Below, piece after piece: positions 311-18,197 of a DNA stretch of 19,712 bases. Made by a program: the position numbers and the translations under genes. The notes under the pieces are model-generated. The model was not told where the DNA came from, made no database searches, and saw nothing but the letters and a program-made list of their open reading frames with translations. The DNA is from Theionarchaea archaeon (GTDB taxonomy: Archaea; Methanobacteriota_B; Thermococci; Methanofastidiosales; SZ-28-30). Each line of letters begins with the position of its first letter. Position 1 is the stretch's first letter. The DNA lies in contig JACVGT010000023.1 of the NCBI GenBank assembly GCA_018992685.1, forward strand, positions 1 to 19,712, written 5' to 3'.

Positions 311-1711
311 ATGAGACCTAAGACTGTTAATCTGGGTTTGACGCTCATGATCCTCATGCTACTCATTGAAAGCACGATGGCATCAGGGGAGTTTAACGCA
401 GTGCAGGATCACTTTGGAGCAGCCATCTACGAAGATATTGTTGTATGGATAGCGATGACTAATAAGAGCGAAAACATCCATGGCTATAATCTTACCACCA
501 AGCAGGTATTCCAGGTCACCACACAAAAAGGCCCTCAAGAGTTTCCTGCGATCTGCAAAGATATTGTTGTGTGGATGGATTACAGAGATGGAAATTGGAA
601 TATTTACGGGTATAACCTAACTACAGGACAAGAGTTTCCAGTAGTCATTGCGAAGGGCGACCAAATGGATACCGTAATCTATGAGGACATTGTGGTGTGG
701 GCAGACAACAGGAATGGCAACTGGGACATTAATGGGTACCATCTATCTACTGGAGAAGAATTCTTCTTGAACCGGCCGGAGTCGAATCAGATGAGCCCTG
801 CAATCTATGGGGACGTTGTGGTATGGGCAGATGACAGGACTGGTGACTGGGATATCTATGCCTACAACATGTCGACAGGAAAGGAAATTCAAATTGTCGC
901 AGCTCCTGGAGATCAAAAAGTTCCAGAGATTTTTCAGGACTTCATTGTGTGGGAGGACAACAGAGATGGTGAATGGGACATCTATGGATATGATCTGGCT
1001 GCACACGAAGAGGTTCCCATATCAACTAACTCAAGCAGCCAAAAACTGGGGGGAATCTATGGAAACATAGTCATATGGACTGATGATAGAAATGGCCACT
1101 TCGACATCTTTGGATACGACCTGGTTGAGAGAGAAGAATTCTCAATAGTAATCAGTCCCGACAACAAAACGATGCCAGCAATCTATGGAGACACCGTGAT
1201 CTGGAGTGATGCAAGGAATGGCAACTGGGACCTGTATGGGTCTTCGTTATCTGGAGGAGAGGAATTCCGGATTACAGGTGAAGACCAGCAAGCTCACAAA
1301 GACGAGACAGAAGACTTAGAAGCAGAATATCTTGTCCTCGAGGCCTACCATCTGGAAGGAGCTACCCTTACCGTTTGCTTCCAGAATAGGCTGGATACAG
1401 AAGCCACTGTAACCAGCGAGTACAAGAATGATTCATTAATCACTTCCCAGCTGCAAGAAACTCTGGAGGGGAATGCCCGGAATTGCTTTTCACTACATGG
1501 TGCGTATGCAATTGGAGACAAAGTCACCTTGCTGACTGAGAAAGGGACAATACTTTCATTTACCGTGAATCCAGAGGAGGTGGAGACTCCATCCGAGATG
1601 AATACACCCACTAACCTCATCTTCCTGATACCTCTTCTGGTGGGGGTCGTTATTATCGTTTTCATCATATCAAGGAAAAGGTGGAAGAATGCAAATAGTC
1701 TCATGAGGTAG
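311..1711 (+). CDS. Secreted, C-terminally anchored seven-bladed TolB-like beta-propeller protein
   Basis: Residues 1-25 are a Sec-type signal peptide (hydrophobic run LGLTLMILMLLI). Residues 35-328 are seven tandem units of 42 residues with the pattern IYxDxVVWxDxRNGxWDIYGYxLxTGxE, enough for a closed seven-bladed TolB/WD40-type propeller. A beta-rich domain of about 100 residues follows, then a C-terminal membrane segment (about residues 439-459, LIFLIPLLVGVVIIVFII) with a basic tail. The protein should therefore sit on the outer face of the cytoplasmic membrane with its propeller exposed. Several N-x-S/T sequons (NKS, NLT, NMS, NDS) would allow archaeal N-glycosylation. Such propellers usually bind proteins or polysaccharides; the ligand is unknown. 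A GGAG ribosome binding site precedes the ATG. The next gene starts only 4 bases after the stop, so the two are probably co-transcribed. Confidence 0.85.
   Translation: MRPKTVNLGLTLMILMLLIESTMASGEFNAVQDHFGAAIYEDIVVWIAMTNKSENIHGYNLTTKQVFQVTTQKGPQEFPAICKDIVVWMDYRDGNWNIYGYNLTTGQEFPVVIAKGDQMDTVIYEDIVVWADNRNGNWDINGYHLSTGEEFFLNRPESNQMSPAIYGDVVVWADDRTGDWDIYAYNMSTGKEIQIVAAPGDQKVPEIFQDFIVWEDNRDGEWDIYGYDLAAHEEVPISTNSSSQKLGGIYGNIVIWTDDRNGHFDIFGYDLVEREEFSIVISPDNKTMPAIYGDTVIWSDARNGNWDLYGSSLSGGEEFRITGEDQQAHKDETEDLEAEYLVLEAYHLEGATLTVCFQNRLDTEATVTSEYKNDSLITSQLQETLEGNARNCFSLHGAYAIGDKVTLLTEKGTILSFTVNPEEVETPSEMNTPTNLIFLIPLLVGVVIIVFIISRKRWKNANSLMR
413..1294 (+). repeat. Seven tandem 126-bp (42-residue) propeller-blade repeats
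   Basis: Seven units in exact register, each 42 residues, run from residue 35 to about 328 of the propeller gene. The conserved core in each is I-Y-x-D-I-V-V-W followed by D-x-R-x-G-x-W-D-I-Y-G-Y. Units 1 and 7 are the most diverged at their edges (unit 1 lacks the DxRNG loop; unit 7 has lost the YGYxL ending), as expected for terminal blades. The DNA units have clearly diverged, so this is an old expansion. Confidence 0.85.
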
Positions 1712-1715
1712 ATCT

Positions 1716-2480
1716 ATGATAAGTGACAGAGAGCCATTCTTGCTGAAAAATGGAAGGAAAATATACCGTGCAGGCCTCGCATTACTCTTCACTTTGTTTC
1801 TGGTCTTACTGCCGCTATTCATCGTATTTCAATTTCAGAATCAAAATATCTCGGACCTTCTGGGGATTCTATTTATCGTACTGCTCCCTTTGGGCATAAT
1901 GGTGACATTCTCTGGTTCTGCTTTCTCTAACCTGTGTGCAATAGTCAGCCGACTCCCCGACGGTTACGTATTGAAGAGTTTTGATCCACTTCGCCTCCGG
2001 GTAGAGATAACTGATGCCAAAAGGATTCAAACCATCCAGTATCATGCATTGGCAGCCCCGTACTCTTTCTATTTTTATGCACGCCACTTGATATTGCTCA
2101 ATATTGATATTCCTCCTGAATACTATCAGATATGGACTCCCATCTCAGGATACAGGCATGAACCCAGGCTAAATCGTTATGATTTTCTGTCTTATATTCG
2201 ACCACATGGACTGGCAAGACTCTCTTCTGGTACTTGTTCCTCGACCCAGAAAGACATCCTTTTTGATGCAGATCTGATGGAACAAGTTCCACACCTTCAC
2301 ACAGCAGCAAATGCAATTTCCCCTCTTCGGAGAGTTGGTATAACATCAGTGAAAGGAACTCCTATTATTCTGGCTCTCCTCGCTCAGGAGGTAGAACCTT
2401 CCCATATCATTAAGACCATGACGCTACTGGAGCAGATAGCGCAAGAACTGGAAAGGATAATGCTCCCCAATGAGAAATAA
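1716..2480 (+). CDS. Two-TM membrane protein, paralog A
   Basis: 254 residues, not a family I recognise. Two hydrophobic segments lie near the N-terminus (about residues 20-42 and 47-70: GLALLFTLFLVLLPLFIVF and LLGILFIVLLPLGIMVTFSG). A soluble region of about 180 residues follows. It is paralogous to the gene at 2750: both have PYSFxxxxR, then a PPExYQxW motif, a later R-x-x-G-I/L segment, an I-x-ALL stretch and a helical C-terminus. The ATG at 1716 has a GAGGT ribosome binding site 7 bases upstream, and only 4 bases separate it from the propeller gene, so coupled expression is likely. The small ORF at 2470 overlaps its last codons. The soluble domain probably lies in the cytoplasm (basic residues precede TM1 and both termini would be inside). 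Function unknown. Confidence 0.75.
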   Translation: MISDREPFLLKNGRKIYRAGLALLFTLFLVLLPLFIVFQFQNQNISDLLGILFIVLLPLGIMVTFSGSAFSNLCAIVSRLPDGYVLKSFDPLRLRVEITDAKRIQTIQYHALAAPYSFYFYARHLILLNIDIPPEYYQIWTPISGYRHEPRLNRYDFLSYIRPHGLARLSSGTCSSTQKDILFDADLMEQVPHLHTAANAISPLRRVGITSVKGTPIILALLAQEVEPSHIIKTMTLLEQIAQELERIMLPNEK

Positions 2481-2625
2481 AGGTGATCCCGTTAAAAAAA
2501 TCCTTAACTCCATAGTACTTGCCAACGCAGTGCTCGATATATCATGGATGATTGGAAGCTCATTCTTTGTCTCGTGTATTTCGGTCTGGTGGAAGTTTAG
2601 GCAATCCAAGAAGACCCTTCAGTAG
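2470..2625 (+). CDS. Small single-TM membrane protein (51 residues)
   Basis: An ATG inside the last codons of paralog A (overlap 11 bases) opens a frame of 51 residues ending in TAG. The product starts MRNKGDPVKKILNS, has a hydrophobic stretch of about 25 residues with several aromatic residues (about 14-41, including SSFFVSCISVWW), and ends with a basic tail KFRQSKKTLQ. This looks like a small membrane protein and not a random frame. The ribosome binding site is weak (GGAAAGGAT about 12 bases upstream), but the overlap fits translational coupling to paralog A. I recognise no family. It could still be a chance ORF in an otherwise empty 270-base stretch. Confidence 0.45.
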   Translation: MRNKGDPVKKILNSIVLANAVLDISWMIGSSFFVSCISVWWKFRQSKKTLQ

Positions 2626-2678
2626 TGGCTGGTTCATGTGATCAGTCCTCCCTCTCTTCATAGCCTGGCAAAGACAAC

Positions 2679-2689
2679 CTTATTAACAT
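2679..2689 (+). promoter_or_regulatory. TATA-like box upstream of paralog B
   Basis: The sequence CTTATTAACAT is a modest TATA-like match. Transcription would begin near 2708. That removes the possible GTG start at 2690 from the transcript and favours the ATG at 2750, which has its own Shine-Dalgarno-like GGGAGTGATC. Confidence 0.3.
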
Positions 2690-2749
2690 GTGAAGAAGAA
2701 AGAGATCGAAAAAGGATGGAGGACAGCTGATGTTCTGGGAGTGATCAGA

Positions 2750-3460
2750 ATGAAGAGAAGACTATTCACAATAAGACATTGGCGAATCTACAAAGGTATG
2801 GGTATATGCCTCATAGTATCCTTCTTTTGTTCAATCCCAGTTATCACTTTCTACTTGGGGCTCGACACAGCTCCAGCAGTAATCATATCATTATTACTTT
2901 TCGCAGGATGGCAGCTTTATTACCAGGGATCAGCAGCAGAAGCTTTTTCGAGATTATTCTATCCCTTTGAAGATGAAATTAAATTTGACTGGATAAGATT
3001 TATTATTTCGACACAGAAAGAGTCAATTCTCTACCATTTTAGTTCTAGCCCATATTCTTTCTGGATTCATTTCAGATACTCCATTCCGCTAGAGGATGCT
3101 CCCCCTGAACACTATCAGGTTTGGAAAGAGACTTCATGGCCCTCAAGAATAAGGGTATCTCCTTACAGCCTCAGAGAATATCTCCTGCTTAATCGAAAAT
3201 GGCAACTTCTACTTCAGGAATTGGAAATCATAGATAAGCTAGCTGACACAGTTAGCGACGAACTCAGGCCGTATTTCCCGAGAGAAGAGATTTCTATTGC
3301 CTCACTCCGACACATTGGTCTTGCAAGGAGAGCCAACAAGAATATCTTGATAGCGTTGCTCACCACCGATGCCTCACTTGAAGAATTCCAGCTTGTTTTC
3401 TCTATTCTTGATGAAATCGAGGATAGAATACGGGGAAGTAATGAACCCGAAACTTGGTGA
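2750..3460 (+). CDS. Two-TM membrane protein, paralog B
   Basis: 236 residues from the ATG at 2750. A GTG at 2690 would add 20 residues, but the ATG has a better ribosome binding site (GGGAGTGATC) and gives an N-terminus aligned with paralog A (HWRIYK against GRKIYR). Two hydrophobic segments (KGMGICLIVSFFCSIPVITF and PAVIISLLLFAGWQLYY) are followed by a soluble domain with PYSFWIHFRY, PPEHYQVW and a helical C-terminus EEFQLVFSILDEIEDRI. It is paralogous to the gene at 1716 and, even more closely at the C-terminus, to the fragment at base 1. It is probably an integral membrane protein with a cytoplasmic C-terminal domain. I do not recognise the family. It seems to be its own transcription unit, since 125 bases separate it from the small ORF upstream. 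Confidence 0.75.
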   Translation: MKRRLFTIRHWRIYKGMGICLIVSFFCSIPVITFYLGLDTAPAVIISLLLFAGWQLYYQGSAAEAFSRLFYPFEDEIKFDWIRFIISTQKESILYHFSSSPYSFWIHFRYSIPLEDAPPEHYQVWKETSWPSRIRVSPYSLREYLLLNRKWQLLLQELEIIDKLADTVSDELRPYFPREEISIASLRHIGLARRANKNILIALLTTDASLEEFQLVFSILDEIEDRIRGSNEPETW

Positions 3461-3791
3461 GTACGTCTAGTTCCAACCCAGTTCGCTGGTTGCGTATTAA
3501 CACTCCCGGTATTCGCTAATGAGGAGTACTGAAGGCAGGAATTCCCACAAGGTTGGAATGCGATCAGAATAATTCTTGTACCATATCAAGAAAAAGAATA
3601 GTGTCTTGCTCAATCCAGAGACAGAACCGTCTCCATATAGATGAATACCATCAAGTGACATAGATTTATTCGAAACTCGGTGGATAATTAAGAACCTCGT
3701 TTCCAGGTCTCCTGATTCGAATCATTGACAAGGGTTCTATACATCTACCATGTAAAGCAAAAGACTAAAAACAGCTTTCGTAACGTATACC
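3461..3791. other. Intergenic stretch, 331 bases, partly duplicated from bases 84-200
   Basis: No gene seen. Bases 3507-3548 repeat bases 127-168 (34 of 42 identical, ungapped). The rest is AT-rich with stops in all frames. A perfect 10-base palindrome GATTCGAATC lies at 3714-3723. A weak TATA-like CTATACA at about 3737-3743 may serve the racemase-like gene, giving a leader of about 25-30 bases. Confidence 0.5.
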
Positions 3792-4466
3792 ATGCATCTC
3801 GGTCTCTTAGTTCCTTCTTCAAACACTGTCATGGAAGAAGAACTATCCCAGTATGTGATCGTTCACTCCACCAGGATTGCCCTTAGAACAGTGGATGAAA
3901 TATCTCTGAAAAACATGAATACAGAAATAGAAAAAGCAGTTCAACTGCTCAAACTGCTCACAGATTGTAATCCCGCAGTTATTGTATACGGTTGTACCTC
4001 TGGCAGTTTTGTAGAAGACATTAGGAAGTCCTTTGCTGCTACCACTATCCCCGTGATCACGACGTCGGAAGCAGTAGTCAACGCTCTCAAGGCTCTTCAA
4101 GTGGGATCAGTCTCTGTAGGAACTCCCTACACTGACGCAATAAACCAGAAAGAAAAGGCTTTTCTGGAATCTCATGGATTCACTGTTTCAGATATTAAAG
4201 GATTGAACCTCACAGACAATACAGAGATAGGAAAGCAGGAAACAGCTTACGAGCTGGCAAGATCTCTTAAAAAGGCAGATGCCATCTTCATAAGCTGCAC
4301 GAATTTCAGAACCTTTAATGTGATACAGAAGTTGGAAGATGGACTGGGGATTCCAGTCATATCCAGCAACTCAGCAAGTTTATGGGGGGCACTCACTGAT
4401 TCAGGCGAAAAAGCGGAAATAAAAAGCATATCTGGTCTGGGCAGACTATTGGAGGAATTACCGTGA
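3792..4466 (+). CDS. Asp/Glu-racemase superfamily protein, maleate isomerase / hydantoin racemase-like
   Basis: 224 residues, full length for the maleate cis-trans isomerase and arylmalonate decarboxylase branch of the Asp/Glu/hydantoin racemase superfamily. The N-terminal LLVPSSNTVME motif is typical of that branch. Both catalytic cysteines are present: Cys68 in YGCTSGS and Cys169 in SCTNFRT. Two cysteines mean isomerase or racemase chemistry is possible, whereas arylmalonate decarboxylases keep only one. It is the first gene of an operon: its TGA overlaps the GTG start of hyuA by 4 bases. In this setting it probably isomerises the substrate or product of HyuA/HyuB, for example racemising a hydantoin-like ring. 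Exact substrate unknown. The ATG has no obvious ribosome binding site. Confidence 0.85.
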   Translation: MHLGLLVPSSNTVMEEELSQYVIVHSTRIALRTVDEISLKNMNTEIEKAVQLLKLLTDCNPAVIVYGCTSGSFVEDIRKSFAATTIPVITTSEAVVNALKALQVGSVSVGTPYTDAINQKEKAFLESHGFTVSDIKGLNLTDNTEIGKQETAYELARSLKKADAIFISCTNFRTFNVIQKLEDGLGIPVISSNSASLWGALTDSGEKAEIKSISGLGRLLEELP

Positions 4467-6367
4467 TTGTAGGATCTGATGTGGGCGGTACCTTTACTGA
4501 TACAGTATTTGTATCTAAGGGCGAGATTAAGGTTTCGAAAGTGCCCACTACACCCCACGATTTTGCAGAAGGAATTATCAAGGGGATAGCCAAGGTTACC
4601 ACTGAGTATGACACATTGGTTCACGGCATGACGGTGGGAACGAATGCCGTTCTCCAGAGGAAGGGGGCCAGGGTGACTCTCATCACGAATAGAGGATTTA
4701 CCGATGTTTTGGAGATTGGGAGGCAGAACAGACCATCGCTCTATGATTTTTCAGTAGACCGCCCCCCTCCTCTGGTTCCCAGAGACAGGAGGATTGGGGT
4801 TACGGGTCGAATCAACCATAAAGGCGAAATACTGGAAGATTTGGAAGAACATGATATGGTTCTCCCCAAAGAGACTGAGTCAGTGGCAATCTGCCTTTTA
4901 CATTCGTATGCTAACCCTGTTCATGAGCAAAAGATACAGTCCATGATTTCTTTACCTACCTGTATCTCCAGTGACGTCCTCCCTGAATACAGAGAGTACG
5001 AACGGATGTCAACCACTGTCATTAATGCGTATCTGATGCCTGTTATTGACAGGTATCTGTCTCGGTTGGAGACCACGATTTCTGACAGGCTATTAGTCAT
5101 AGAATCGTCTGGAGGAGTCATGACTGCTCACGCAGCCAGAGGAAAGCCGGTACATACGGTGCTATCTGGTCCTGCAGGAGGTGTCATTGCTTCTCAAGTT
5201 GTGGGTGACATCATAGGGTTAAAGAAGTTGATCACCCTGGATATGGGGGGAACCAGTACAGATATTTCAGTAATTAAGGGTGAACCCATCATAACGACGG
5301 AAGGGTCAATAGAAGGATATCCTTTGAGAATCCCCATGATAGATATCCACACCATTGGGGCAGGCGGAGGAAGCATAGCCTGGCTGGACGAGGGAGGTGC
5401 TCTACGGGTGGGCCCAGTGTCTGCAGAAGCTGTCCCTGGCCCTGCGTGTTACGGGAGAGGAGGAGATTTGCCCACGGTGACTGATGCCAATTTGATCCTG
5501 GGCAGACTGGGCAGAAAGCTGGGAAATGAGCTGACGCTGAATGTGAATCTAGCCAAGAAGGCAATGGATGTCTTGCGTGAGAGGACGGGGCTTGATCCTA
5601 TAGAGCTGGCTTCTGGAATCATTAAAGTTGCCAATGCTAATATGTGCCAGGGTATCAGGGTGGTTTCTGTGGAACGAGGGCATGATCCCCGGGATTTTGT
5701 TTTGCTAGCGTTCGGAGGAGCAGGTCCCCTGCATGCCTGTGAGTTGGCCAGTGAACTGTCCATCCCCCGGGTGCTGATTCCTGTGTATCCTGGAGTTTTT
5801 TCGGCCCTTGGAATGGTGGCAGCGGACATAAAGCACGAATTTGTGGTGACTAGAAAGATGAGTCCTGAACAGGACACGGGACCTGTATTTGACGATCTAG
5901 AGAAAAAAGCAGTTGGAGTCCTGAAGAAAGAGGGCGTTTCAGAGGACAGAGTGATGCTGCAGCGATTCATCGATACCCGGTACTGTGGTCAATCCTATGA
6001 GCTCCGAATTCCTGCCGAAAATGTGGTGCAGAGGTTTCATCAAGCCCATCATGCACTGTATGGATACAGTGATGAGACAGCCCCCGTGGAATTTGTTAAT
6101 TTCAGAGTCGTGGGCATAGGCAGGCAGCAGAAAATTGCACTGCCTCGAGTGGAAAAAGGAAGGGGAGAACCGTTACCAGGAGAGACCCGGACATGCTTCT
6201 TTGGCGAATTTGTGGAGACTCCTGTATTTGAAAGAGACATCTTGCAAAGCGGTCACTGTCTTAAAGGTCCTGCTGTCATTGACGAAATGGAATCTACCAT
6301 CCTCATTCCCCCTGGATGGAGAATGACCGTGGATGACCATGGTAATCTCCTTGGAGAGGTGACATGA
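4463..6367 (+). CDS. hyuA: Hydantoinase/oxoprolinase A subunit (N-methylhydantoinase A family)
   Basis: 634 residues, close to the family's usual 650-700. The order of motifs is right: the N-terminal ASKHA phosphate-binding loop GSDVGGTFTD (residues 4-13), TVGTNAVLQRKGARV (about 58-72), SSGGVM and SGPAGGVIASQ (about 214-242), DMGGTSTDIS (260-269), GAGGGS (299-304), PGPACYGRGG (about 324-333) and FGGAGPLHACELA (about 417). The family couples ATP hydrolysis to opening of a cyclic amide (5-oxoproline, N-methylhydantoin) or, in acetone/acetophenone carboxylases, to substrate activation, acting with HyuB. The GTG start at 4463 sits in a GTGA overlap with the upstream stop and has GGAGG at 4451-4455. 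HyuB follows with a 4-base ATGA overlap. No carboxylase gamma subunit is adjacent, which favours ring hydrolysis. Substrate not decidable from sequence. Confidence 0.93.
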   Translation: MIVGSDVGGTFTDTVFVSKGEIKVSKVPTTPHDFAEGIIKGIAKVTTEYDTLVHGMTVGTNAVLQRKGARVTLITNRGFTDVLEIGRQNRPSLYDFSVDRPPPLVPRDRRIGVTGRINHKGEILEDLEEHDMVLPKETESVAICLLHSYANPVHEQKIQSMISLPTCISSDVLPEYREYERMSTTVINAYLMPVIDRYLSRLETTISDRLLVIESSGGVMTAHAARGKPVHTVLSGPAGGVIASQVVGDIIGLKKLITLDMGGTSTDISVIKGEPIITTEGSIEGYPLRIPMIDIHTIGAGGGSIAWLDEGGALRVGPVSAEAVPGPACYGRGGDLPTVTDANLILGRLGRKLGNELTLNVNLAKKAMDVLRERTGLDPIELASGIIKVANANMCQGIRVVSVERGHDPRDFVLLAFGGAGPLHACELASELSIPRVLIPVYPGVFSALGMVAADIKHEFVVTRKMSPEQDTGPVFDDLEKKAVGVLKKEGVSEDRVMLQRFIDTRYCGQSYELRIPAENVVQRFHQAHHALYGYSDETAPVEFVNFRVVGIGRQQKIALPRVEKGRGEPLPGETRTCFFGEFVETPVFERDILQSGHCLKGPAVIDEMESTILIPPGWRMTVDDHGNLLGEVT

Positions 6368-7989
6368 TGGATGCTGTTACTCTTGAGATACTGCGCTGTT
6401 CTCTTCAGTCAGTGGCTGAAGAAATGGGGGCAGCTTTGGGGAGGACAGCATTCTCACCCAATATCAAAGAGAGGAAGGATTTTTCTTGTGCCGTATTCGA
6501 TGATAATGGAAGAATGGTATCCCAGGCTGAACACATCCCAGTCCACCTCGGCTCTATGCCCCTGTCAGTAAAGGGGGCTCTAAAGGAATTCGACTTTGAG
6601 GAAGGAGACATCATCATTTTGAATGATCCCTACTGGGGAGGTACCCATCTCCCAGATATCACGTTAATAGCACCCATTTTCTGTGGAGATTTACTAGGAT
6701 TTGCAGCCTGCAGGGCCCACCATGCTGATGTCGGTGGAAAGGCACCCGGGAGTATGCCTGGTGACTCCAGAGAAGTATTCGAAGAGGGTGTGATCATACC
6801 ACCTGTGAGACTGTACCGGGGGGGAGTACTGGATACAGATATTCTGCGCCTCATATTACGAAATGTGAGGACTCCAGATGAGAGGAAAGGCGATTTGAAG
6901 GCCCAGTATTCTGCGTGCCAGATAGGAAGGAAACGCATTGTGGAATTGGTTGAGAAATATAGTAGACAAACAATGGCAGAAGCATTTGAAGAAGTAATGG
7001 ATTATTCTGAAAGGAGAATGCGCAAGAAGATTGCAGAATTCCCTTCAGGGGAGTATGCTGCTGAAGACTTCATGGACAATGACGGGGTTACAGATAGCCC
7101 GGTGAGAGTTGCAGTTACTTTGAAAATTGGTGGACGTGGAAAGGGAGAAGAAGGGATTGCGTGTGATTTCACTGGAACTGACCAACAGACACGCGGGAAC
7201 ATCAATGCAGTGTATGCAGTGACGGTGTCCTGCGTGTACTACACGGTACGGTGTGTCACAGACCCAGGGATACCTCCCAACGAGGGATGTTACCGACCGG
7301 TGACCATCACCGTGCCTGAAGGATGTTTGTTACACCCACTTCACCCGCATGCAGTATCTGCAGGGAATGTGGAGACATCCCAGAGGATCGTGGATGTATT
7401 ACTCAAAGCATTTTCCAAGGTTGCACCTGAGAAAGTGATTGCTGGCTGTCAGGGGACCATGAACAATGTGACCATTGGAGGCACGTTCTGCGGACAGTCT
7501 TTTGCTTACTATGAGACTATTGGAGGCGGTATGGGTGCCCGTCATGATAAGGATGGTATTGACGGTGTCCACACTCACATGTCCAACACGTTGAACACTC
7601 CAATCGAAGCTCTGGAAATGAGTTATCCTTTTCTCGTGACAGAATACTCTTTGATTAATAATTCAGGGGGTAGGGGCAGGTTCAGAGGGGGGCTGGGAAT
7701 CAAGAGGGGGCTCGAGGTTCTGACTGATTGTACTGTATCCATACAGAGTGAGAGAAGGAAATTCGCTCCCTATGGGCTTTTTGGTGGTGAAGAGGGGAGG
7801 AGTGGTAGAAATTTGCTCATGAGGGCGGGAAATGAGCTAGAGTTACCGTCCAAGACCACATACGAGTTGTTGAGGGGTGATATTATCAGAATTGAAACTC
7901 CAGGTGGCGGAGGATATGGAAATTTCGAGGAGAGACCTGAAGAACTGCGATTGAAGGATGAAAGGGAGCACAGGATGACACAGTTCTAG
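6364..7989 (+). CDS. hyuB: Hydantoinase/oxoprolinase B subunit
   Basis: 541 residues, normal length. Typical HyuB features are all visible: DAVTLEILRCSLQSVAEEMG at the N-terminus, the NDPYWGGTHLPDITLIAPIF segment (about 88-106), a CRAHHADVGG motif (about 118-127) with metal-ligand-like histidines, QIGRKRIVELVEKY, DFTGTDQQTRGNIN (about 267-280), HPHAVSAGNVETSQRIVD, the glycine-rich ETIGGGMGARHDKDG with the following HTHMSNT, RGRFRGGLGIKRG, and the terminal ETPGGGGYGN. It forms the catalytic complex with HyuA. The start overlaps the hyuA stop (ATGA). A second ATG at 6367 is equally possible, with GGAGAGGTGA just upstream. Last gene of the operon; the arginase-like gene lies 221 bases on and has its own TATA box. 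Confidence 0.93.
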   Translation: MMDAVTLEILRCSLQSVAEEMGAALGRTAFSPNIKERKDFSCAVFDDNGRMVSQAEHIPVHLGSMPLSVKGALKEFDFEEGDIIILNDPYWGGTHLPDITLIAPIFCGDLLGFAACRAHHADVGGKAPGSMPGDSREVFEEGVIIPPVRLYRGGVLDTDILRLILRNVRTPDERKGDLKAQYSACQIGRKRIVELVEKYSRQTMAEAFEEVMDYSERRMRKKIAEFPSGEYAAEDFMDNDGVTDSPVRVAVTLKIGGRGKGEEGIACDFTGTDQQTRGNINAVYAVTVSCVYYTVRCVTDPGIPPNEGCYRPVTITVPEGCLLHPLHPHAVSAGNVETSQRIVDVLLKAFSKVAPEKVIAGCQGTMNNVTIGGTFCGQSFAYYETIGGGMGARHDKDGIDGVHTHMSNTLNTPIEALEMSYPFLVTEYSLINNSGGRGRFRGGLGIKRGLEVLTDCTVSIQSERRKFAPYGLFGGEEGRSGRNLLMRAGNELELPSKTTYELLRGDIIRIETPGGGGYGNFEERPEELRLKDEREHRMTQF

Positions 7990-8168
7990 TCACGGATAGG
8001 AGGGAATTGGGAACTGCACAGTGGAAAGAAAAGGAAAAAAAGGAGCTGAGGGTCCCTCATTTATCATGAAACACATCCAGGAATGATGATATCCAAAAGG
8101 AGAATACACGGGTTGGTCAGAAAATCTTGATAAGTGATCATATTTGTGACGTGAAGACTCAAAGAATA
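7990..8168. other. Intergenic stretch with a 13-base palindrome
   Basis: No gene. A perfect odd palindrome TGAGGGTCCCTCA lies at 8047-8059, after a purine-rich run. It might be a protein-binding site or part of the hyuB 3' end. As an RNA hairpin its loop would be too tight unless the stem frays. No clear U-run terminator. Confidence 0.3.
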
Positions 8169-8178
8169 CGTTTATATG
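8169..8178 (+). promoter_or_regulatory. TATA box of the arginase-like gene
   Basis: CGTTTATATG is a good archaeal TATA match. Transcription should begin near 8198-8200. This excludes the upstream in-frame TTG (8127) and makes the ATG at 8187 unlikely, leaving the ATG at 8211 with a very short leader. Confidence 0.5.
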
Positions 8179-8210
8179 TTGGTGGAATGAAATCACAGGC
8201 GAGTGTTTGC

Positions 8211-8975
8211 ATGAATAACCGCTATATTGTAACACCTTACTTCCTTGATGAGGATTTGCCACAGCTCGAGGAACTTCTCCAACCCGGGTGGCTTCTCAAC
8301 AAGCCCTGCCCTGGTGAAGGGGACACAATGACCCGAATGTCTGTGGTGGCTGAATCACTGGCTGGCTGCGTTGTGGATGCCCTGGCAAAAGGGGAAAGGC
8401 CGGTGAGCATTGCTGGCGATTGCTGCACTACACTGGGAGTTCTGGCCGGGCTGCAGAGAACAAATATTACTCCTGTTCTGATATGGTTCGATGCACATGG
8501 AGATTTCAACACATGGGAGACAACGCCCAGTGGATTTCTGGGAGGCATGCCCCTGGCAATGATAGCAGGCCGGGGGGATCAGAAGCTTGTTGAAGCTGTC
8601 GGATTTCGCAACTTACCGGAGGAAAAAGTAGTTCTCGTTGGTGCACGTGACCTGGATCCAGGCGAAAAGGCAGCAGTAGAAGGTTCTGCAATTCATTTTG
8701 TTTCGGATCCAAAATCCCTCCCGGACTATCCAGTGCCAGATGGCCCCCTGTACGTTCACTTTGACACAGATGTGGTTGATCCCAGAGATGCACCTGCCAT
8801 GAGTTACCGCGCTGAAGGAGGTCTCTCAGCTGGTGAATTGAGAGAGGTGTTCCGTTATCTCTCTGAGACAGGAAGGATAGTAGCAGTTTCTCTTTCCAGC
8901 TGGAATCCACGCATGGAGGGGGCTGACCAATCAAGACGGACGTGTATGGACTTACTGAAAACGCTCGTAGAGTGA
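8211..8975 (+). CDS. Arginase/ureohydrolase-fold protein with altered active site
   Basis: 254 residues, somewhat short for the arginase/agmatinase/formiminoglutamase fold (about 280-310). Core metal motifs are visible: AGDCC (residues 68-72), FDAHGDFNT (93-101, ligands D94, H96, D98) and FDTDVVDP (184-191, ligands D185, D187). In arginases the first motif is GGDHS, and its histidine binds manganese; here that place is Cys71. The Glu before the late NP motif, which reads the guanidino group, is absent (SSWNP at 229-233). So it is unlikely to be a true arginase or agmatinase. Hydrolysis of a formimino, ureido or similar C-N bond is possible. The start at 8211 was chosen from the TATA position; ATG 8187 would add 8 residues. 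It follows the hyu operon, so it might process the ring-opened product (inference). Confidence 0.8.
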   Translation: MNNRYIVTPYFLDEDLPQLEELLQPGWLLNKPCPGEGDTMTRMSVVAESLAGCVVDALAKGERPVSIAGDCCTTLGVLAGLQRTNITPVLIWFDAHGDFNTWETTPSGFLGGMPLAMIAGRGDQKLVEAVGFRNLPEEKVVLVGARDLDPGEKAAVEGSAIHFVSDPKSLPDYPVPDGPLYVHFDTDVVDPRDAPAMSYRAEGGLSAGELREVFRYLSETGRIVAVSLSSWNPRMEGADQSRRTCMDLLKTLVE

Positions 8976-9137
8976 AAAATGATTGGTTATATCATGGAGT
9001 TCCTTGATCGCGAGAGCACTTTTCTCGTCATGAGAGAGTAGAAACAGATGCTCTGATTAGATGATCAATTCGAATTCTGAACCAGAAACTTGACTGAGAC
9101 ATCCTAAAAGATAAGGGTAAAAGAAAAAAGAGAAAAA

Positions 9138-9824
9138 TCATCGTACCAATCCAGAGGCATCTCGCACCAATCCAGAGGCATCTCGCACCAATCCAGAGGC
9201 ATCTCGCACCAATCCAGAGGCATCTCGCACCAATCCAGAGGCATCAGAAGGATTCTTGGTATTATCAGCTCGATTTTCAAGAGTATCTGCTCTCGCTTCA
9301 AGATCCGCCTTGTTCATCAGGTTCTGGAGATCCTTTTTCTTCACTGGATCTGACATCAATTCAGAAACGTCTCTTACAAGCCCAGATGCATCTCGTACCA
9401 GACCCGAAGCGTCTCTCACCAGTCCAGAAGCATCTCGTACCATGTCAGAAGTTTTTCCAGCTTTGGCCAAGTTAACATACCTCCTCATTGACAGTGCAAA
9501 CCTGGAGTTCTCTATGAAAAGTAGCCGAGCTTTCTTCGCCATGTCTTTGTACTTTTGAGCTATAGCCTGGTTTGGCACCGACCCAGGGGCGCCCCGTACC
9601 AGTCCAGACGCATCTCGTACCAGTCCAGACGCATCTCGTACCAGTCCAGACGCATCTCGTACCAGTCCAGACGCATCTCGTACCAGATCAGAAACACTGG
9701 GAGGTATTTTTCCAGAATCTAGAACTGCAGCACATTCCCTCACTGCGTCATCAATCTCCAGAACTGTTTTGTCAGCCTCTTGATTTGCCTTGGATTCCGC
9801 AAGGACAACATCTTTTGGAAACAT
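9138..9824 (-). CDS. Heptapeptide-repeat (DASGLVR) protein, unrecognised family
   Basis: 228 residues, no signal peptide or membrane segment, so probably cytoplasmic. Twelve exact copies of DASGLVR lie in three blocks: four at about residues 50-77, three at 131-151, and five at 194-228, the last ending right at the stop codon. Half-repeats flank the first two blocks (SDLVR, GAPGSVP, SDMVR, DVSELM). The linkers are predicted helical: an N-terminal 45 residues, a middle segment with QKYKDMAKKARLLFIENSRF, and a charged segment with NKADLEARADTLENRAD that itself looks coiled-coil-like. On a helical wheel A, L and V of each heptad fall on one face and D, R, S, G on the other, so the blocks could form long amphipathic helices or coiled coils; a beta-solenoid is the alternative. 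The start has a strong AAAGGAGGG ribosome binding site. Monocistronic. I do not recognise a family and assign no function. Confidence 0.85.
   Translation of the reverse strand: MFPKDVVLAESKANQEADKTVLEIDDAVRECAAVLDSGKIPPSVSDLVRDASGLVRDASGLVRDASGLVRDASGLVRGAPGSVPNQAIAQKYKDMAKKARLLFIENSRFALSMRRYVNLAKAGKTSDMVRDASGLVRDASGLVRDASGLVRDVSELMSDPVKKKDLQNLMNKADLEARADTLENRADNTKNPSDASGLVRDASGLVRDASGLVRDASGLVRDASGLVR
9141..9245 (-). repeat. Block 3: five tandem 21-bp units encoding DASGLVR
   Basis: On the minus strand the unit is GATGCCTCTGG followed by ATTGGTGCGA. The five copies are identical except for one synonymous change in the last (GTA for GTG). The near-perfect identity points to a recent expansion or to gene conversion. 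The array runs straight into the TGA stop. Confidence 0.95.
9372..9434 (-). repeat. Block 2: three 21-bp units, same peptide, diverged codons
   Basis: The three units encode exactly DASGLVR but differ pairwise at 4 to 6 codons out of 7, all synonymous (for example GAT/GAC, GCT/GCA, TCT/TCG, GGA/GGT/GGG, CTG/CTT, AGA/CGA). This is an old array held at the protein level. Confidence 0.95.
9594..9677 (-). repeat. Block 1: four tandem 21-bp units encoding DASGLVR
   Basis: On the minus strand the unit is GATGCGTCTGG followed by ACTGGTACGA. The copies are identical except for a final CGG arginine codon in the last one. The codon choice (GCG, CTG, GTA) differs from block 3 (GCC, TTG, GTG), so the two blocks were homogenised separately. 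Confidence 0.95.
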
Positions 9825-9857
9825 AAATCGCCCTCCTTTACTGCAATTTGTATCATT

Positions 9858-9872
9858 GCGCCGTCGTGGCGC
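9858..9872 (-). promoter_or_regulatory. GC hairpin in the leader of the heptapeptide-repeat gene
   Basis: GCGCC-GTCGT-GGCGC would form a 5-bp all-GC stem with a 5-base loop in the presumed leader, 34 bases before the ATG, between the TATA candidate and the ribosome binding site. It might influence translation or be a protein site. Seen in sequence; role inferred. Confidence 0.3.
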
Positions 9873-9940
9873 TCACATTTTCTCTCGTTGCCATCTTAAG
9901 AACATTTCGGTGTACTTTTCTTACCCGTAACCATTTTTTG

Positions 9941-10004: not shown

Positions 10005-11906
10005 CTACTTTCTGGCGAGTAACTGTCTCTTGAGAAATACGACAGCCACAAGCGACGCGACGTACCCCAGTCCAAAGAGCACTCCCTGCAGCAACAAGAA
10101 ATACAATGCCATCAAGGTCAAGACAAAAAAGAATGTTCCCCAGATTATATCAATTACCACACCAGAGTTCACGATCAGCCTTTCCAGCAAAAAAAAAGCT
10201 GCAACAAGAATGATTACACCCGAAAGCAGCCCCAGAATCCACGGACCACACACACCAAGAAGAATCCACCGCAACTTGTACCCGATGAGCAGCAGCTCAT
10301 ACAGGAGATAGCCAAACCCTATGAAAGATCCGATCACAGGCACGAAATATAGATAATAAACAGTCCTGGGATTATTTTTCTTTAAAGAGCGTATTTTCGT
10401 TGCGCATGTGACAATACCCCACCCCACAACTCCTGCCATAATGCCAGTAACCAGGGCTGCAGTTTGGGATGCGAGATCCCTTACATTCTCAATTTCTCTC
10501 ATGATTTCAGGAACATCCTCGGGAGGTGCAGTCGTCAGATCTGACCTGAATCCCGAACCATAACACAGAAACAGGCTCCACCAGGATTCCTGTTCTACCT
10601 CGGTCAACAACAGCTTTGCAGAATATGCGTGGGGAGGGACTAGTTGAAACCCGTATGTCTTCAGAATGGCATACACGTCCTCTCCCTTGTCCAGGGCGTT
10701 CACAACATAGTCTAGTGAAGAGTCCCTTTCTCGTGCAAGTATCTGCAACATTTGCTGTACCGTCTCATGTCCGCAGGTGCGGTCAATCTCATAGATGACG
10801 TACATCCCCTTGTTATACTTGGCATAAATCAGAGCTTCCTGTTTATCTGTCAGTCCCAGCCCGTACCGCGTAGAAGTAACATCCGTCATTTCGCCATATT
10901 GCCTTTCATATGTCTGGAAGTACGATTCCTGGTTGGGGATGAAACCCTCAGGAAGGGGAGGAGCAAGCCTGATTACCACCTCATTCTGAAAGTAGCTGGC
11001 CATGCCCTCTTCCAGGTACCGCGGAAAGTCACCAATATAGGAATGGATGAGTTCGTGAGTCAGAAACTCCGAGGGGTAGGATGATGTATTGTTAATCAGG
11101 ACGTTGATTCTTCCCAGTCCAACATACTCTGCTGCAGCCCACGTATCTTCTTCCTTGCCCAGGCTTATCTCAAAATGGTGATATTCAGGAGGGGTAGCCG
11201 TTTCATCGAGGAATATGGGGAACGTTACTTTCACAAATTTTTCGATGTCCTCAGTAAATACTTCCGCTTTCCTGGGGTACGTGACCTCAAAGGAATAATC
11301 TTCATAGGAAAATATTCTGGATGCAGTATCTTCATAATCGATTCCCTCTTGAAGCTCATAGGGTAGAATCACGGAGGCGTCCTTGTCCAACTCAAAGGAG
11401 AAAATCGTTCTGTCCTCCATTCGCGTGATCTCTGGAGTGGGCGATGCCCTGGACGTTGCCGTGATTCCGGTCAGAGGAACAGAAATTCTGACTGAGGTCG
11501 TATCTGTCAGGTTAACAATGTTGTAAAGGTATTTTCCTGTAACGGGTTTGCCTGTTCCAGACGTAATGAACCAGTATTCCGCTGTAAAATGGTAAGGGGC
11601 GATGATTGGATGAGGGAAAACTACGTTAATCTTTCTATAAATGTTTTTTCCAACGATGATATTTTCACGTAGTTCATAATCGAGTTCCTTTTCATCATCG
11701 AAAACGCGAAGACCTCCATATGACAATGCTAAGGTTAGAATCTCGAATTCAGCCAGCCCACTGGTGGTCAAGGTATATTCCTGGGTGACATTGATTCGGT
11801 CTTCACCAATGGAGGGCTCAATGATGATGAGGGTATGTGAGGCATCTTGTGTTGCTCCCGGTGTGAGCAACAGCAGTACAAAGAACGGGATTATCCAGCG
11901 CTTCAT
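10005..11906 (-). CDS. Secreted/membrane zinc peptidase, Peptidase_MA-like, with C-terminal polytopic membrane domain
   Basis: 633 residues. Residues 1-19 are a signal peptide (WIIPFFVLLLLTPGATQ). About 20-230 is a beta-rich extracytoplasmic region with several N-x-S/T sequons. The catalytic site is THELIH (283-288) followed by FPRYLEEGMASYF: two histidines and catalytic Glu285, with Glu300 of EEG as the probable third zinc ligand. The short spacing between HExxH and EEG fits the Peptidase_MA-type gluzincins and not classical M1 aminopeptidases, which have 18 residues between. From about residue 470 there are four or five hydrophobic segments (ALVTGIMAGVVGWGIVTC, YFVPVIGSFIGFGYLLYELL, GLLSGVIILVAAFFLLERL, FFFVLTLMALYFLLLQGVLFG). 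The peptidase domain should face outside. Substrate unknown. The start lies about 26 bases downstream of a TATA box, so the mRNA is probably leaderless. Confidence 0.82.
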   Translation of the reverse strand: MKRWIIPFFVLLLLTPGATQDASHTLIIIEPSIGEDRINVTQEYTLTTSGLAEFEILTLALSYGGLRVFDDEKELDYELRENIIVGKNIYRKINVVFPHPIIAPYHFTAEYWFITSGTGKPVTGKYLYNIVNLTDTTSVRISVPLTGITATSRASPTPEITRMEDRTIFSFELDKDASVILPYELQEGIDYEDTASRIFSYEDYSFEVTYPRKAEVFTEDIEKFVKVTFPIFLDETATPPEYHHFEISLGKEEDTWAAAEYVGLGRINVLINNTSSYPSEFLTHELIHSYIGDFPRYLEEGMASYFQNEVVIRLAPPLPEGFIPNQESYFQTYERQYGEMTDVTSTRYGLGLTDKQEALIYAKYNKGMYVIYEIDRTCGHETVQQMLQILARERDSSLDYVVNALDKGEDVYAILKTYGFQLVPPHAYSAKLLLTEVEQESWWSLFLCYGSGFRSDLTTAPPEDVPEIMREIENVRDLASQTAALVTGIMAGVVGWGIVTCATKIRSLKKNNPRTVYYLYFVPVIGSFIGFGYLLYELLLIGYKLRWILLGVCGPWILGLLSGVIILVAAFFLLERLIVNSGVVIDIIWGTFFFVLTLMALYFLLLQGVLFGLGYVASLVAVVFLKRQLLARK

Positions 11907-16540: not shown

Positions 16541-17466
16541 AAGAATTGGAATCCTGTCAGTTATGTGAGTGGCGGTGTAAGGTCAACAGGGTATCTGGTG
16601 AGACTGGAGTCTGCGGGGTTGGGATACCTAGAGTAGCATGTTCCATGTTGCATCCAGCACCTCCCGCAAGTTTCGATGCGTTCATGGAAGGGTGCAACTT
16701 TACCTGTTTGGGCTGCCAGAACTATGCCATTTCCATGTTGCAGGAACGAGGAGAATATATTCCCCCTGTGGAGTGGGCAGAACTGGGAACAGCTGCCTTG
16801 CATTCTGCACAGGGACGGCGGATTGGGGCTGATAGACTGTTTTTCACTGGCGGGGAGCCCACCTGTTCATTGCCCTGGGTGGAGGCTGCAGCCGAATCTG
16901 TGAATACAAAGGTGAACTTTGACACCAATGGATTCATGACCGAGCAGTCACTGGAGAGGATACTTTCATTCTCAGATTCTATCACTTTCGATATCAAGGC
17001 CTTTACTCCTGAGGTGCATCAAGCGTTGACTGGTGCACCGGTGGCTCCCGTTCTGAGAAATGCGAAATACCTCGTTGAGCGTGCCCTTGAGAAGGTGTAT
17101 GAGTTCAGGGTTTTGGTGATGCCCGGATTGATGGCAGAAGCCATCGATGTTGCCCGATTCCTGGCAGACCTCTCTGAAGATTCCCCTTTGCTGTTCCTGG
17201 CATTCAGGCCCAATTTTATGCTTGACAAAGCACGTGGAAGTACTACAGAAGAAATGGAGTCAGTGGTAGAAGCTGCACGGAACTGTGGACTTCGTGAGGT
17301 AACCTGGGCAGGATCGCCAGATATTCCTGGTGAAAAAGAAGGTATTGTCCATTTCATGGAACTGGCATCACGAGCAGGCTGCCACAAAACAAGGAAAGGT
17401 CAACCCCGGGTTTGCACCTGCAGGGACTGCACAGCGAAATCCTACGTTCCCCAGAGGAAAACCTAG
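16537..17466 (+). CDS. Radical SAM protein, pyruvate formate-lyase activating enzyme-like
   Basis: 309 residues. An N-terminal cysteine set (C7, C10, C14, C26: CQLCEWRCKVN, GVCGVG) precedes the radical SAM cluster motif C53-x3-C57-x2-C60 in GCNFTCLGCQNY. FFTGGEPT supplies the SAM-binding GGE, and NFDTNGF and FDIKAF fit the rest of the barrel. A cysteine-rich tail (CTCRDC) suggests an extra metal site. Members of this PflA-like group carry a 4Fe-4S cluster and make a 5'-deoxyadenosyl radical; the target here is unknown, and no glycyl-radical enzyme is in the window. It overlaps the PPC gene by 4 bases. Its TAG overlaps the TAG of the opposite-strand phosphoesterase gene in one CTAG. Confidence 0.9.
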   Translation: MKELESCQLCEWRCKVNRVSGETGVCGVGIPRVACSMLHPAPPASFDAFMEGCNFTCLGCQNYAISMLQERGEYIPPVEWAELGTAALHSAQGRRIGADRLFFTGGEPTCSLPWVEAAAESVNTKVNFDTNGFMTEQSLERILSFSDSITFDIKAFTPEVHQALTGAPVAPVLRNAKYLVERALEKVYEFRVLVMPGLMAEAIDVARFLADLSEDSPLLFLAFRPNFMLDKARGSTTEEMESVVEAARNCGLREVTWAGSPDIPGEKEGIVHFMELASRAGCHKTRKGQPRVCTCRDCTAKSYVPQRKT

Positions 17467-18197
17467 ACCAATCTTCCGAATTCCACCATATCCCCTTCTA
17501 CAACGGCATAGTTTCCATACTTCAGCGCCCCTGGATTCACAGCAAGGGTGGTCTTAATCCATTCCGAGTTTTGGGCATTGTGAGCATGACCACAGATCAC
17601 ATACTCTGGACGGAGAAGATCCACCAGGTAATTCACAACATCAGATCCTTTTTCCTGACCATCTTCACAGCTGAGAGAAGATATTGGAGGAGAATGGGTA
17701 ACAAGAATGCTGATTTCCTTGCCAGAAAATGGTTTCATGGCTTCTATGACCGTTTCCTTTGGATACTGGAGTACAAATGTCATTTCTTCTTGTGCCTCTG
17801 TGAGTTCTCCCCCAAAGCCAGCAATGCAAATGGGAGTTTTCACCAGTATCTGGTGCACGAGTCTGGGTTGAGGACATGCCTGGAGAAACCGACTCTCAGG
17901 TGCATCCATGTTGCCGGGTACAACAAAGTATGGTATCTTGATCCCATCCAGGAATGAAAAAAAAGCATGATAAAACTGAAGATCTTCTTTTTCTTCTCTT
18001 TTTATGCTGTCTGTTATCTCGGGTGTTCTACCCTCGTCTCGCGCCTGTAGCCACTCATCGCCGCGGTTGTGGCCTTTAACAATATCCCCTGAAAACGTGA
18101 TGATATCAGGTGAAATCAAGCTGATCTTGGCCTTCAGCAAGTCCAGAACATGGGTGGCACCATGAAAGTCGGACAAGGTAAGTATTCTCACAGTCAC
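17463..18197 (-). CDS. Calcineurin-like metallophosphoesterase
   Basis: 244 residues. The five motifs of the metallophosphoesterase fold appear in order: LSDFHG (D10, H12), FSGDIV (D38), VPGNMD, VTHSPP and CGHAHN. GNMD has Met where GNHD is commonest, but GNMD also occurs in small archaeal and bacterial members. It is a two-metal cytoplasmic phosphodiesterase or phosphatase; the substrate is unknown. The start chosen is GTG 18197, which overlaps the TGA of the creatininase gene (GTGA) and has AAGGAGAG 6 bases upstream. A GTG at 18215 would add 6 residues but lies on that ribosome binding site. It is co-transcribed with the upstream creatininase-family gene. Confidence 0.88.
   Translation of the reverse strand: MTVRILTLSDFHGATHVLDLLKAKISLISPDIITFSGDIVKGHNRGDEWLQARDEGRTPEITDSIKREEKEDLQFYHAFFSFLDGIKIPYFVVPGNMDAPESRFLQACPQPRLVHQILVKTPICIAGFGGELTEAQEEMTFVLQYPKETVIEAMKPFSGKEISILVTHSPPISSLSCEDGQEKGSDVVNYLVDLLRPEYVICGHAHNAQNSEWIKTTLAVNPGALKYGNYAVVEGDMVEFGRLV

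Follow-up and report, generated by a model that had tools for sequence, protein, structure and literature searches.

A gene in the window (the whole 19,712-nt stretch of Theionarchaea DNA that was analysed) encodes a 228-residue protein built on the heptapeptide DASGLVR and belongs to a genuine protein family, so far found only within a single genus of uncultured Theionarchaea. Selection maintains the DASGLVR peptide of this family despite turnover of the units that encode it. The explanation that best covers the findings as a whole, and which we regard as reasonably probable, is that of a lineage-specific soluble cytoplasmic protein, a single-chain bundle of three helical hairpins that would serve as a rigid adaptor or scaffold.

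Gene organization and expression signals

Twelve exact copies of DASGLVR account for 84 of the 228 residues (12 x 7) and lie in blocks of four, three and five, starting at residues 50, 57, 64 and 71, at 131, 138 and 145, and at 194, 201, 208, 215 and 222, with the final copy directly adjoining the stop codon. This arrangement had been described in an earlier, sequence-only reading and was confirmed on the minus-strand ORF. Tandem Repeats Finder called arrays at 9141-9245, 9362-9442 and 9595-9686 of the window, and degenerate heptads were seen around the blocks (SVSDLVR 5' of block 1, GAPGSVP 3' of block 1 and DVSELMS 3' of block 2). As the same reading had held, the protein carries neither a signal segment nor any stretch reaching the transmembrane threshold. 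The features of the gene and its flanks are as follows.

9117..9137, minus strand: T-rich run right after the stop codon, candidate archaeal terminator; conserved CTTTTTTCTTTTAC in the ortholog
9138..9824, minus strand: heptad-repeat gene, 228 aa; ORF with an ortholog and paralogs, dN/dS 0.16
9141..9245, minus strand: heptad block 3, five exact DASGLVR, residues 194-228, predicted helix 192-224; the ortholog has four
9267..9347, minus strand: variable helix B, residues 160-186, proposed outer helix of hairpin 3 (AlphaFold2)
9372..9434, minus strand: heptad block 2, three exact DASGLVR, residues 131-151, within predicted helix 125-156 (Tandem Repeats Finder, AlphaFold2)
9459..9569, minus strand: variable helix A, residues 86-122, proposed outer helix of hairpin 2, net charge +7 (AlphaFold2)
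9573..9593, minus strand: GAPGSVP, decayed additional heptad, predicted loop in the model; missing from the ortholog in the alignment
9594..9677, minus strand: heptad block 1, four exact DASGLVR, residues 50-77, within predicted helix 42-77 (Tandem Repeats Finder, AlphaFold2)
9717..9815, minus strand: variable helix N, residues 4-36, proposed outer helix of hairpin 1 (AlphaFold2); 48-50% identity with the paralogs
9831..9836, minus strand: ribosome binding site GGAGGG, from the sequence; same in the ortholog
9858..9872, minus strand: stem GCGCC-n5-GGCGC within what is presumably the 5' UTR; retained in the ortholog, with a weak folding signal (z -1.7 and -2.5)
9895..9910, minus strand: candidate BRE/TATA (CCGAAA TGTTCTTAAG) within the conserved upstream block; promoter reading by eye

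The repeat gene is separated from a 633-aa gene by 180 bp, which hold a block nearly identical in the ortholog and containing CCGAAATGTTCTTAAG (BRE/TATA-like, by eye), the GCGCC/GGCGC stem and the ribosome binding site. The latter, which the sequence-only reading had called strong, lies about 6 nt before the ATG. A common CCGAAA-n-TTTATATA was likewise recognized by eye upstream of both paralogs. The gene is conserved and considered very probably expressed, and the earlier proposal of an expressed, cytoplasmic helical protein is supported to that extent. It should also be noted that the stem at 9858-9872 survives in the ortholog although the bases surrounding it have changed; no Rfam match was found in the window.

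Family members and selection

A whole-genome search recovered a syntenic ortholog of 84% identity in a second Theionarchaea genome of the same genus (G001), with a signal-bearing, multi-TM protein of 633-638 aa (weak Peptidase_M1 match) and an arginase-family gene as neighbours in both. Two paralogs of 51% identity are present in the window's own genome (G000), at C8:118-771 and C27:56673-57326, giving four intact genes in all, along with one broken copy, a fragment at the start of G001 contig C56 in which block 1 is frameshifted and the frame is lost after linker A. The sequence-only reading had proposed a search with the linkers alone and named homologs that conserve the linkers and vary in their count of heptads as the result that would support a functional repeat protein; such homologs were found in G001 and in the paralogs. 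Profiles of helix N only and of linker A only each recovered the same two genomes from the 115 of the phylum, with no convincing linker-profile match in the other 113, and hence the linkers, not the repeats alone, define the family. A linker-A match in a further genome (G037; E 0.0017, 24 residues, containing a stop) was read as chance.

No curated family scored above the cut-offs of Pfam (24; best 21.1) or NCBIfam (45; best 30.7), and PADLOC gave none, which bears out the earlier statement that no known family has this repeat. The matches to YtfJ, Syntaxin_2 and DUF6987 in Pfam, CGLAU_01105 in NCBIfam and tail and baseplate proteins in PHROG (E about 1e-4) were set aside as lying under the cut-offs or as generic coiled-coil matches. 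Plasmid tblastn matches were of low complexity, involving enterobacterial autotransporter repeats, and the one examined proved to be antisense to an S6 peptidase CDS. A viral origin was also rejected, there being no relatives in viral contigs (by protein, profile and two degenerate heptad patterns) or in phage records. The literature searched contained neither the string DASGLVR nor any account of an archaeal protein of this kind. The protein is rated as representing a new family of the coiled-coil bundle kind, with a predicted arrangement resembling a trimer of hairpins.

The four intact genes contain 33 perfect DASGLVR heptads in 24 distinct DNA versions, differing by synonymous changes only, and it follows that the peptide is what is kept. 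Between the window gene and its ortholog, dN/dS is about 0.16 for the whole gene, 0.04 for the repeats and 0.23 for the linkers, the whole-gene and linker values being safer as exchange among units may distort dS in the repeats; for the C8 and C27 paralogs the whole-gene value is 0.14. Unit copies are nearly identical at the DNA level within blocks 1 and 3 of the window gene, and in the ortholog blocks 1 and 2 share a 42-bp pair of units, which indicates that unit turnover and exchange are ongoing. Block 3 has five heptads in the window gene versus four in the ortholog, and block 1 of the window gene has one additional, decayed unit, while the predicted helix length stays at about 30-37 residues as the heptad number varies.

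Genomic context of the paralogs and of the window gene

In both C8 and C27 the paralog is the first gene of a 2.2-kb cassette, the two cassettes being 85% identical. It is followed in order by an S-layer-like protein (272 aa, signal/anchor, match to the S-layer outer domain PF05124 at E 1.6e-7), a membrane protein of 139-140 aa with two membrane segments, and a small putative regulator of about 92-99 aa, ribbon-helix-helix-like by eye and without a family match. G001 yielded no counterpart of the cassette's membrane gene or of its regulator gene. Related tyrosine recombinases with a C-terminal zinc ribbon are present at both loci (G000:C8:5502-6716 and G000:C27:49214-50416). An OLD-family ATPase/nuclease is also encoded near C8, as is a transposase near C27, and the two loci look like integrated mobile elements.

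Several other observations were made at these loci. At about 53.0-55.5 kb of C27 (L027:14982-15498 and 16989-17523) the 3' part of the cassette occurs a second time as a partial direct duplicate of 535 bp (92%), comprising the end of the membrane gene, the putative regulator and about 150 bp of non-coding DNA, and three small genes lie between the copies in the manner of inserted cargo. The apparently non-coding stretch of about 150 bp after the putative regulator (L026:2369-2519, L027:14976-15126 and 16983-17134) is 93-94% conserved versus 85% for the cassette genes, and may be a site of recombination or regulation. In addition, a direct repeat of 158 bp (98% identity) was seen at L027:4851-5008 and 8272-8429.

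Within the window, the conserved neighbour at 10005-11906 encodes a protein with a signal peptide, a gluzincin-like domain with an HExxH motif (HELIH), four C-terminal membrane segments and the weak Peptidase_M1 match. On the other side, a run of Asp/Glu racemase-type, hydantoinase A, hydantoinase B and arginase-family genes at 3792-8972 suggests a cluster for hydantoin or ureide degradation.

Predicted structure

AlphaFold2 models were built on two-row alignments of the window protein and its ortholog. The model of the window protein (pLDDT 83, pTM 0.84) shows helices at residues 4-36, 42-77, 86-122, 125-156, 160-186 (interrupted at 174) and 192-224, that is, six predicted helices of about 35 residues forming three hairpins, each of one variable helix and one DASGLVR helix. 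The same six helices were predicted for the ortholog with lower confidence (pLDDT 71, pTM 0.68), the N-terminal half of that model having a pLDDT of 48-71. An up-and-down six-helix bundle is well supported by these models, while the placement of the DASGLVR helices inside and the variable helices outside is only moderately so. Glycine disfavours helix and DASGLVR has one per heptad, yet the heptads are modelled as helical.

The sequence-only reading had placed A, L and V of each heptad on one face of a helix, and this is upheld by the periodicity analysis, in which DASGLVR is strongly amphipathic at 3.5 residues per turn with p < 0.001 versus shuffles for 10 of the 12 repeat helices in the blocks of the four proteins, the weaker values (0.015 and 0.024) belonging to block 3 of the two paralogs. 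The repeat helices of the window protein have a hydrophobic moment of 0.45-0.50 at 3.5 residues per turn (p < 0.001) and show the regular 3.5-residue hydrophobic periodicity by which coiled coils are generally recognized; no regular heptad was found in helix B (p 0.88). No homology was detected among the three variable helices, and since hhalign aligns the heptads only, a threefold descent of the whole module is not supported by sequence.

The further suggestions, that each block forms a stand-alone rod or a filament, or a phasin- or LEA-like surface helix, were not supported. The models are of a compact single-chain bundle in which each block is paired with one linker helix, and the repeats look like the core of the predicted fold and not an exposed module. 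What stands of that interpretation is a conserved amphipathic helical protein without a known family.

Structural comparisons

Foldseek with the window model returned a single match below E 0.001, with a poor TM-score. In a structural second look (VIA) the top row was a designed building block (8ga6, Z 17.4), followed by gp41 5-Helix constructs at Z 13-15 and rmsd 2.7-3.1, which provide the best non-designed match (3ma9, Z 15.0, rmsd 2.9 over 183 residues). For the ortholog model, 2xra comes first (Z 13.2), but fumarase cores, designed filaments and other bundles are level with it. In the trimer-of-hairpins cores (PDB 3ma9, 2xra, 3o42 and 7y9n), inner-type and outer-type helices alternate in one chain in the same order and direction as in the models, with an rmsd of 2.9-3.4 over 165-185 residues. 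Residues 42..228 of the window model align with 543..4581 of 2xra, a range that presumably starts and ends in HR1 (the numbering being read from general knowledge of gp41), and it is on this basis that the DASGLVR helices are assigned to the inner positions; the SARS-CoV-2 S2 5-helix construct 7y9n (918..4960) aligns in the same manner. This assignment is not firm, as helical bundles often reach a Z near 13-15 and the scores of fumarase cores and vinculin tails are only a little lower.

The likeness to gp41 5-Helix is one of arrangement only, the identity of 5-10% amounting to no sequence similarity, and the gp41 construct is engineered whereas the heptad-repeat protein is a natural single chain. 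Unlike class I fusion proteins, the latter is cytoplasmic, without signal, fusion peptide or membrane anchor, and identity as a surface-anchored fusion protein was rejected as it has no transmembrane or signal segment. The vinculin, talin and alpha-catenin rod and tail bundles share the up-and-down helical architecture but have no sequence relation to it (Pfam I_LWEQ, E 0.09-0.11, under the cut-off). The fumarase/aspartase superfamily core is a long-helix bundle of comparable Z, but it is only a fragment of those enzymes and there is no sequence family match. The sc-apCC-6 designs (PDB 8qae, 8qad and 9r1o) are similar in having six helices in one chain, near-identical heptads and small side chains, but their matches are not significant and the repeat protein has three repeat and three non-repeat helices. 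The authors of these designs described natural counterparts as mostly four-helix or hypothetical six-helix bundles (PMC11288890).

Proposed role and alternatives

In the proposed adaptor or scaffold, a module of about 72 residues would occur three times, each time with the variable outer helix first and then a DASGLVR helix comprising 4-5 heptads. The three near-identical DASGLVR helices would run parallel and pack through A, L and V as a constant core, with the three variable helices lying antiparallel outside it and carrying specificity. Heptad number would be altered by unequal exchange, while selection would preserve the peptide and hold each helix at about 30-37 residues. The two subfamilies share only 22% identity in outer helix A, against a nearly invariant DASGLVR core, and a constant core with diverging outer faces would fit an adaptor or scaffold binding partners through the outer helices. 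The chromosomal copy in the window may be kept vertically, with the other type moving in an integrated-element cassette with surface, membrane and putative regulator proteins. The wider statement, namely a natural single-chain pseudo-threefold six-helix bundle with a one-heptapeptide core, evolving by gain and loss of heptads per helix and having one copy on the chromosome and another on integrated elements with an S-layer-like surface protein, is put forward more tentatively.

It is also conceivable, if unlikely, that the blocks act between molecules, with open hairpins or helices swapping into coiled-coil oligomers, filaments or a sub-surface lattice. Identical heptads favour promiscuous pairing, the paralogs have S-layer-like and membrane proteins as neighbours, and the designed filament-forming bundle 8ubg is among the structural matches; however, both models close as one chain, with a high pTM for the window protein, and helix lengths match pairwise inside one chain.

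A seven-residue repeat fits a left-handed coiled coil, while lipid-binding helices typically have 11-residue repeats. The strict period of seven thus makes it improbable that this is an amphipathic helix protein of a membrane or granule surface (phasin-, perilipin- or LEA-like), in spite of the amphipathic repeat helices and the net charge of +7 of helix A. The repeat helices, moreover, have a net charge near 0 and a hydrophobic face of A, L and V only, a face which the model buries, and searches of Pfam, PHROGs and NCBIfam gave no LEA, phasin or lipid-droplet family. A six-helix alpha-helical barrel, with six equivalent helices in a ring around an open channel binding a small molecule, is likewise considered improbable: the small residues A, S and G of the heptad would suit it and designed barrels of six antiparallel helices in one chain are matched weakly (9r1o by sequence, E 0.047; 8qae by fold, Foldseek E 0.038), but neither match is significant, three inner and three outer helices agree better structurally, and helix B does not share the regular heptad. 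Lastly, a minisatellite open by chance in this frame, which the near-identical DNA copies within blocks and the differing heptad numbers of the orthologs might suggest and to which the sequence-only reading had said that a lack of homologs, transcripts and peptides, or broken frames at homologous loci, would point, is ruled out for practical purposes by three further intact genes conserving frame, linkers and heptads (against one broken copy), by the upstream block conserved in the other genome, by purifying selection (dN/dS 0.04-0.23) and by the encoding of one peptide in 24 DNA versions.

If the predicted fold of the preferred adaptor or scaffold is true, nature has built what protein designers build, using one idealised heptad for three helices of a single chain. 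It would then provide a test case from nature of how, within one chain, identical helices each pair with the correct partner and of how coiled-coil length evolves through the gain and loss of units, and a previously undescribed integrated-element cassette of Theionarchaea would link a cytoplasmic bundle to a surface protein.
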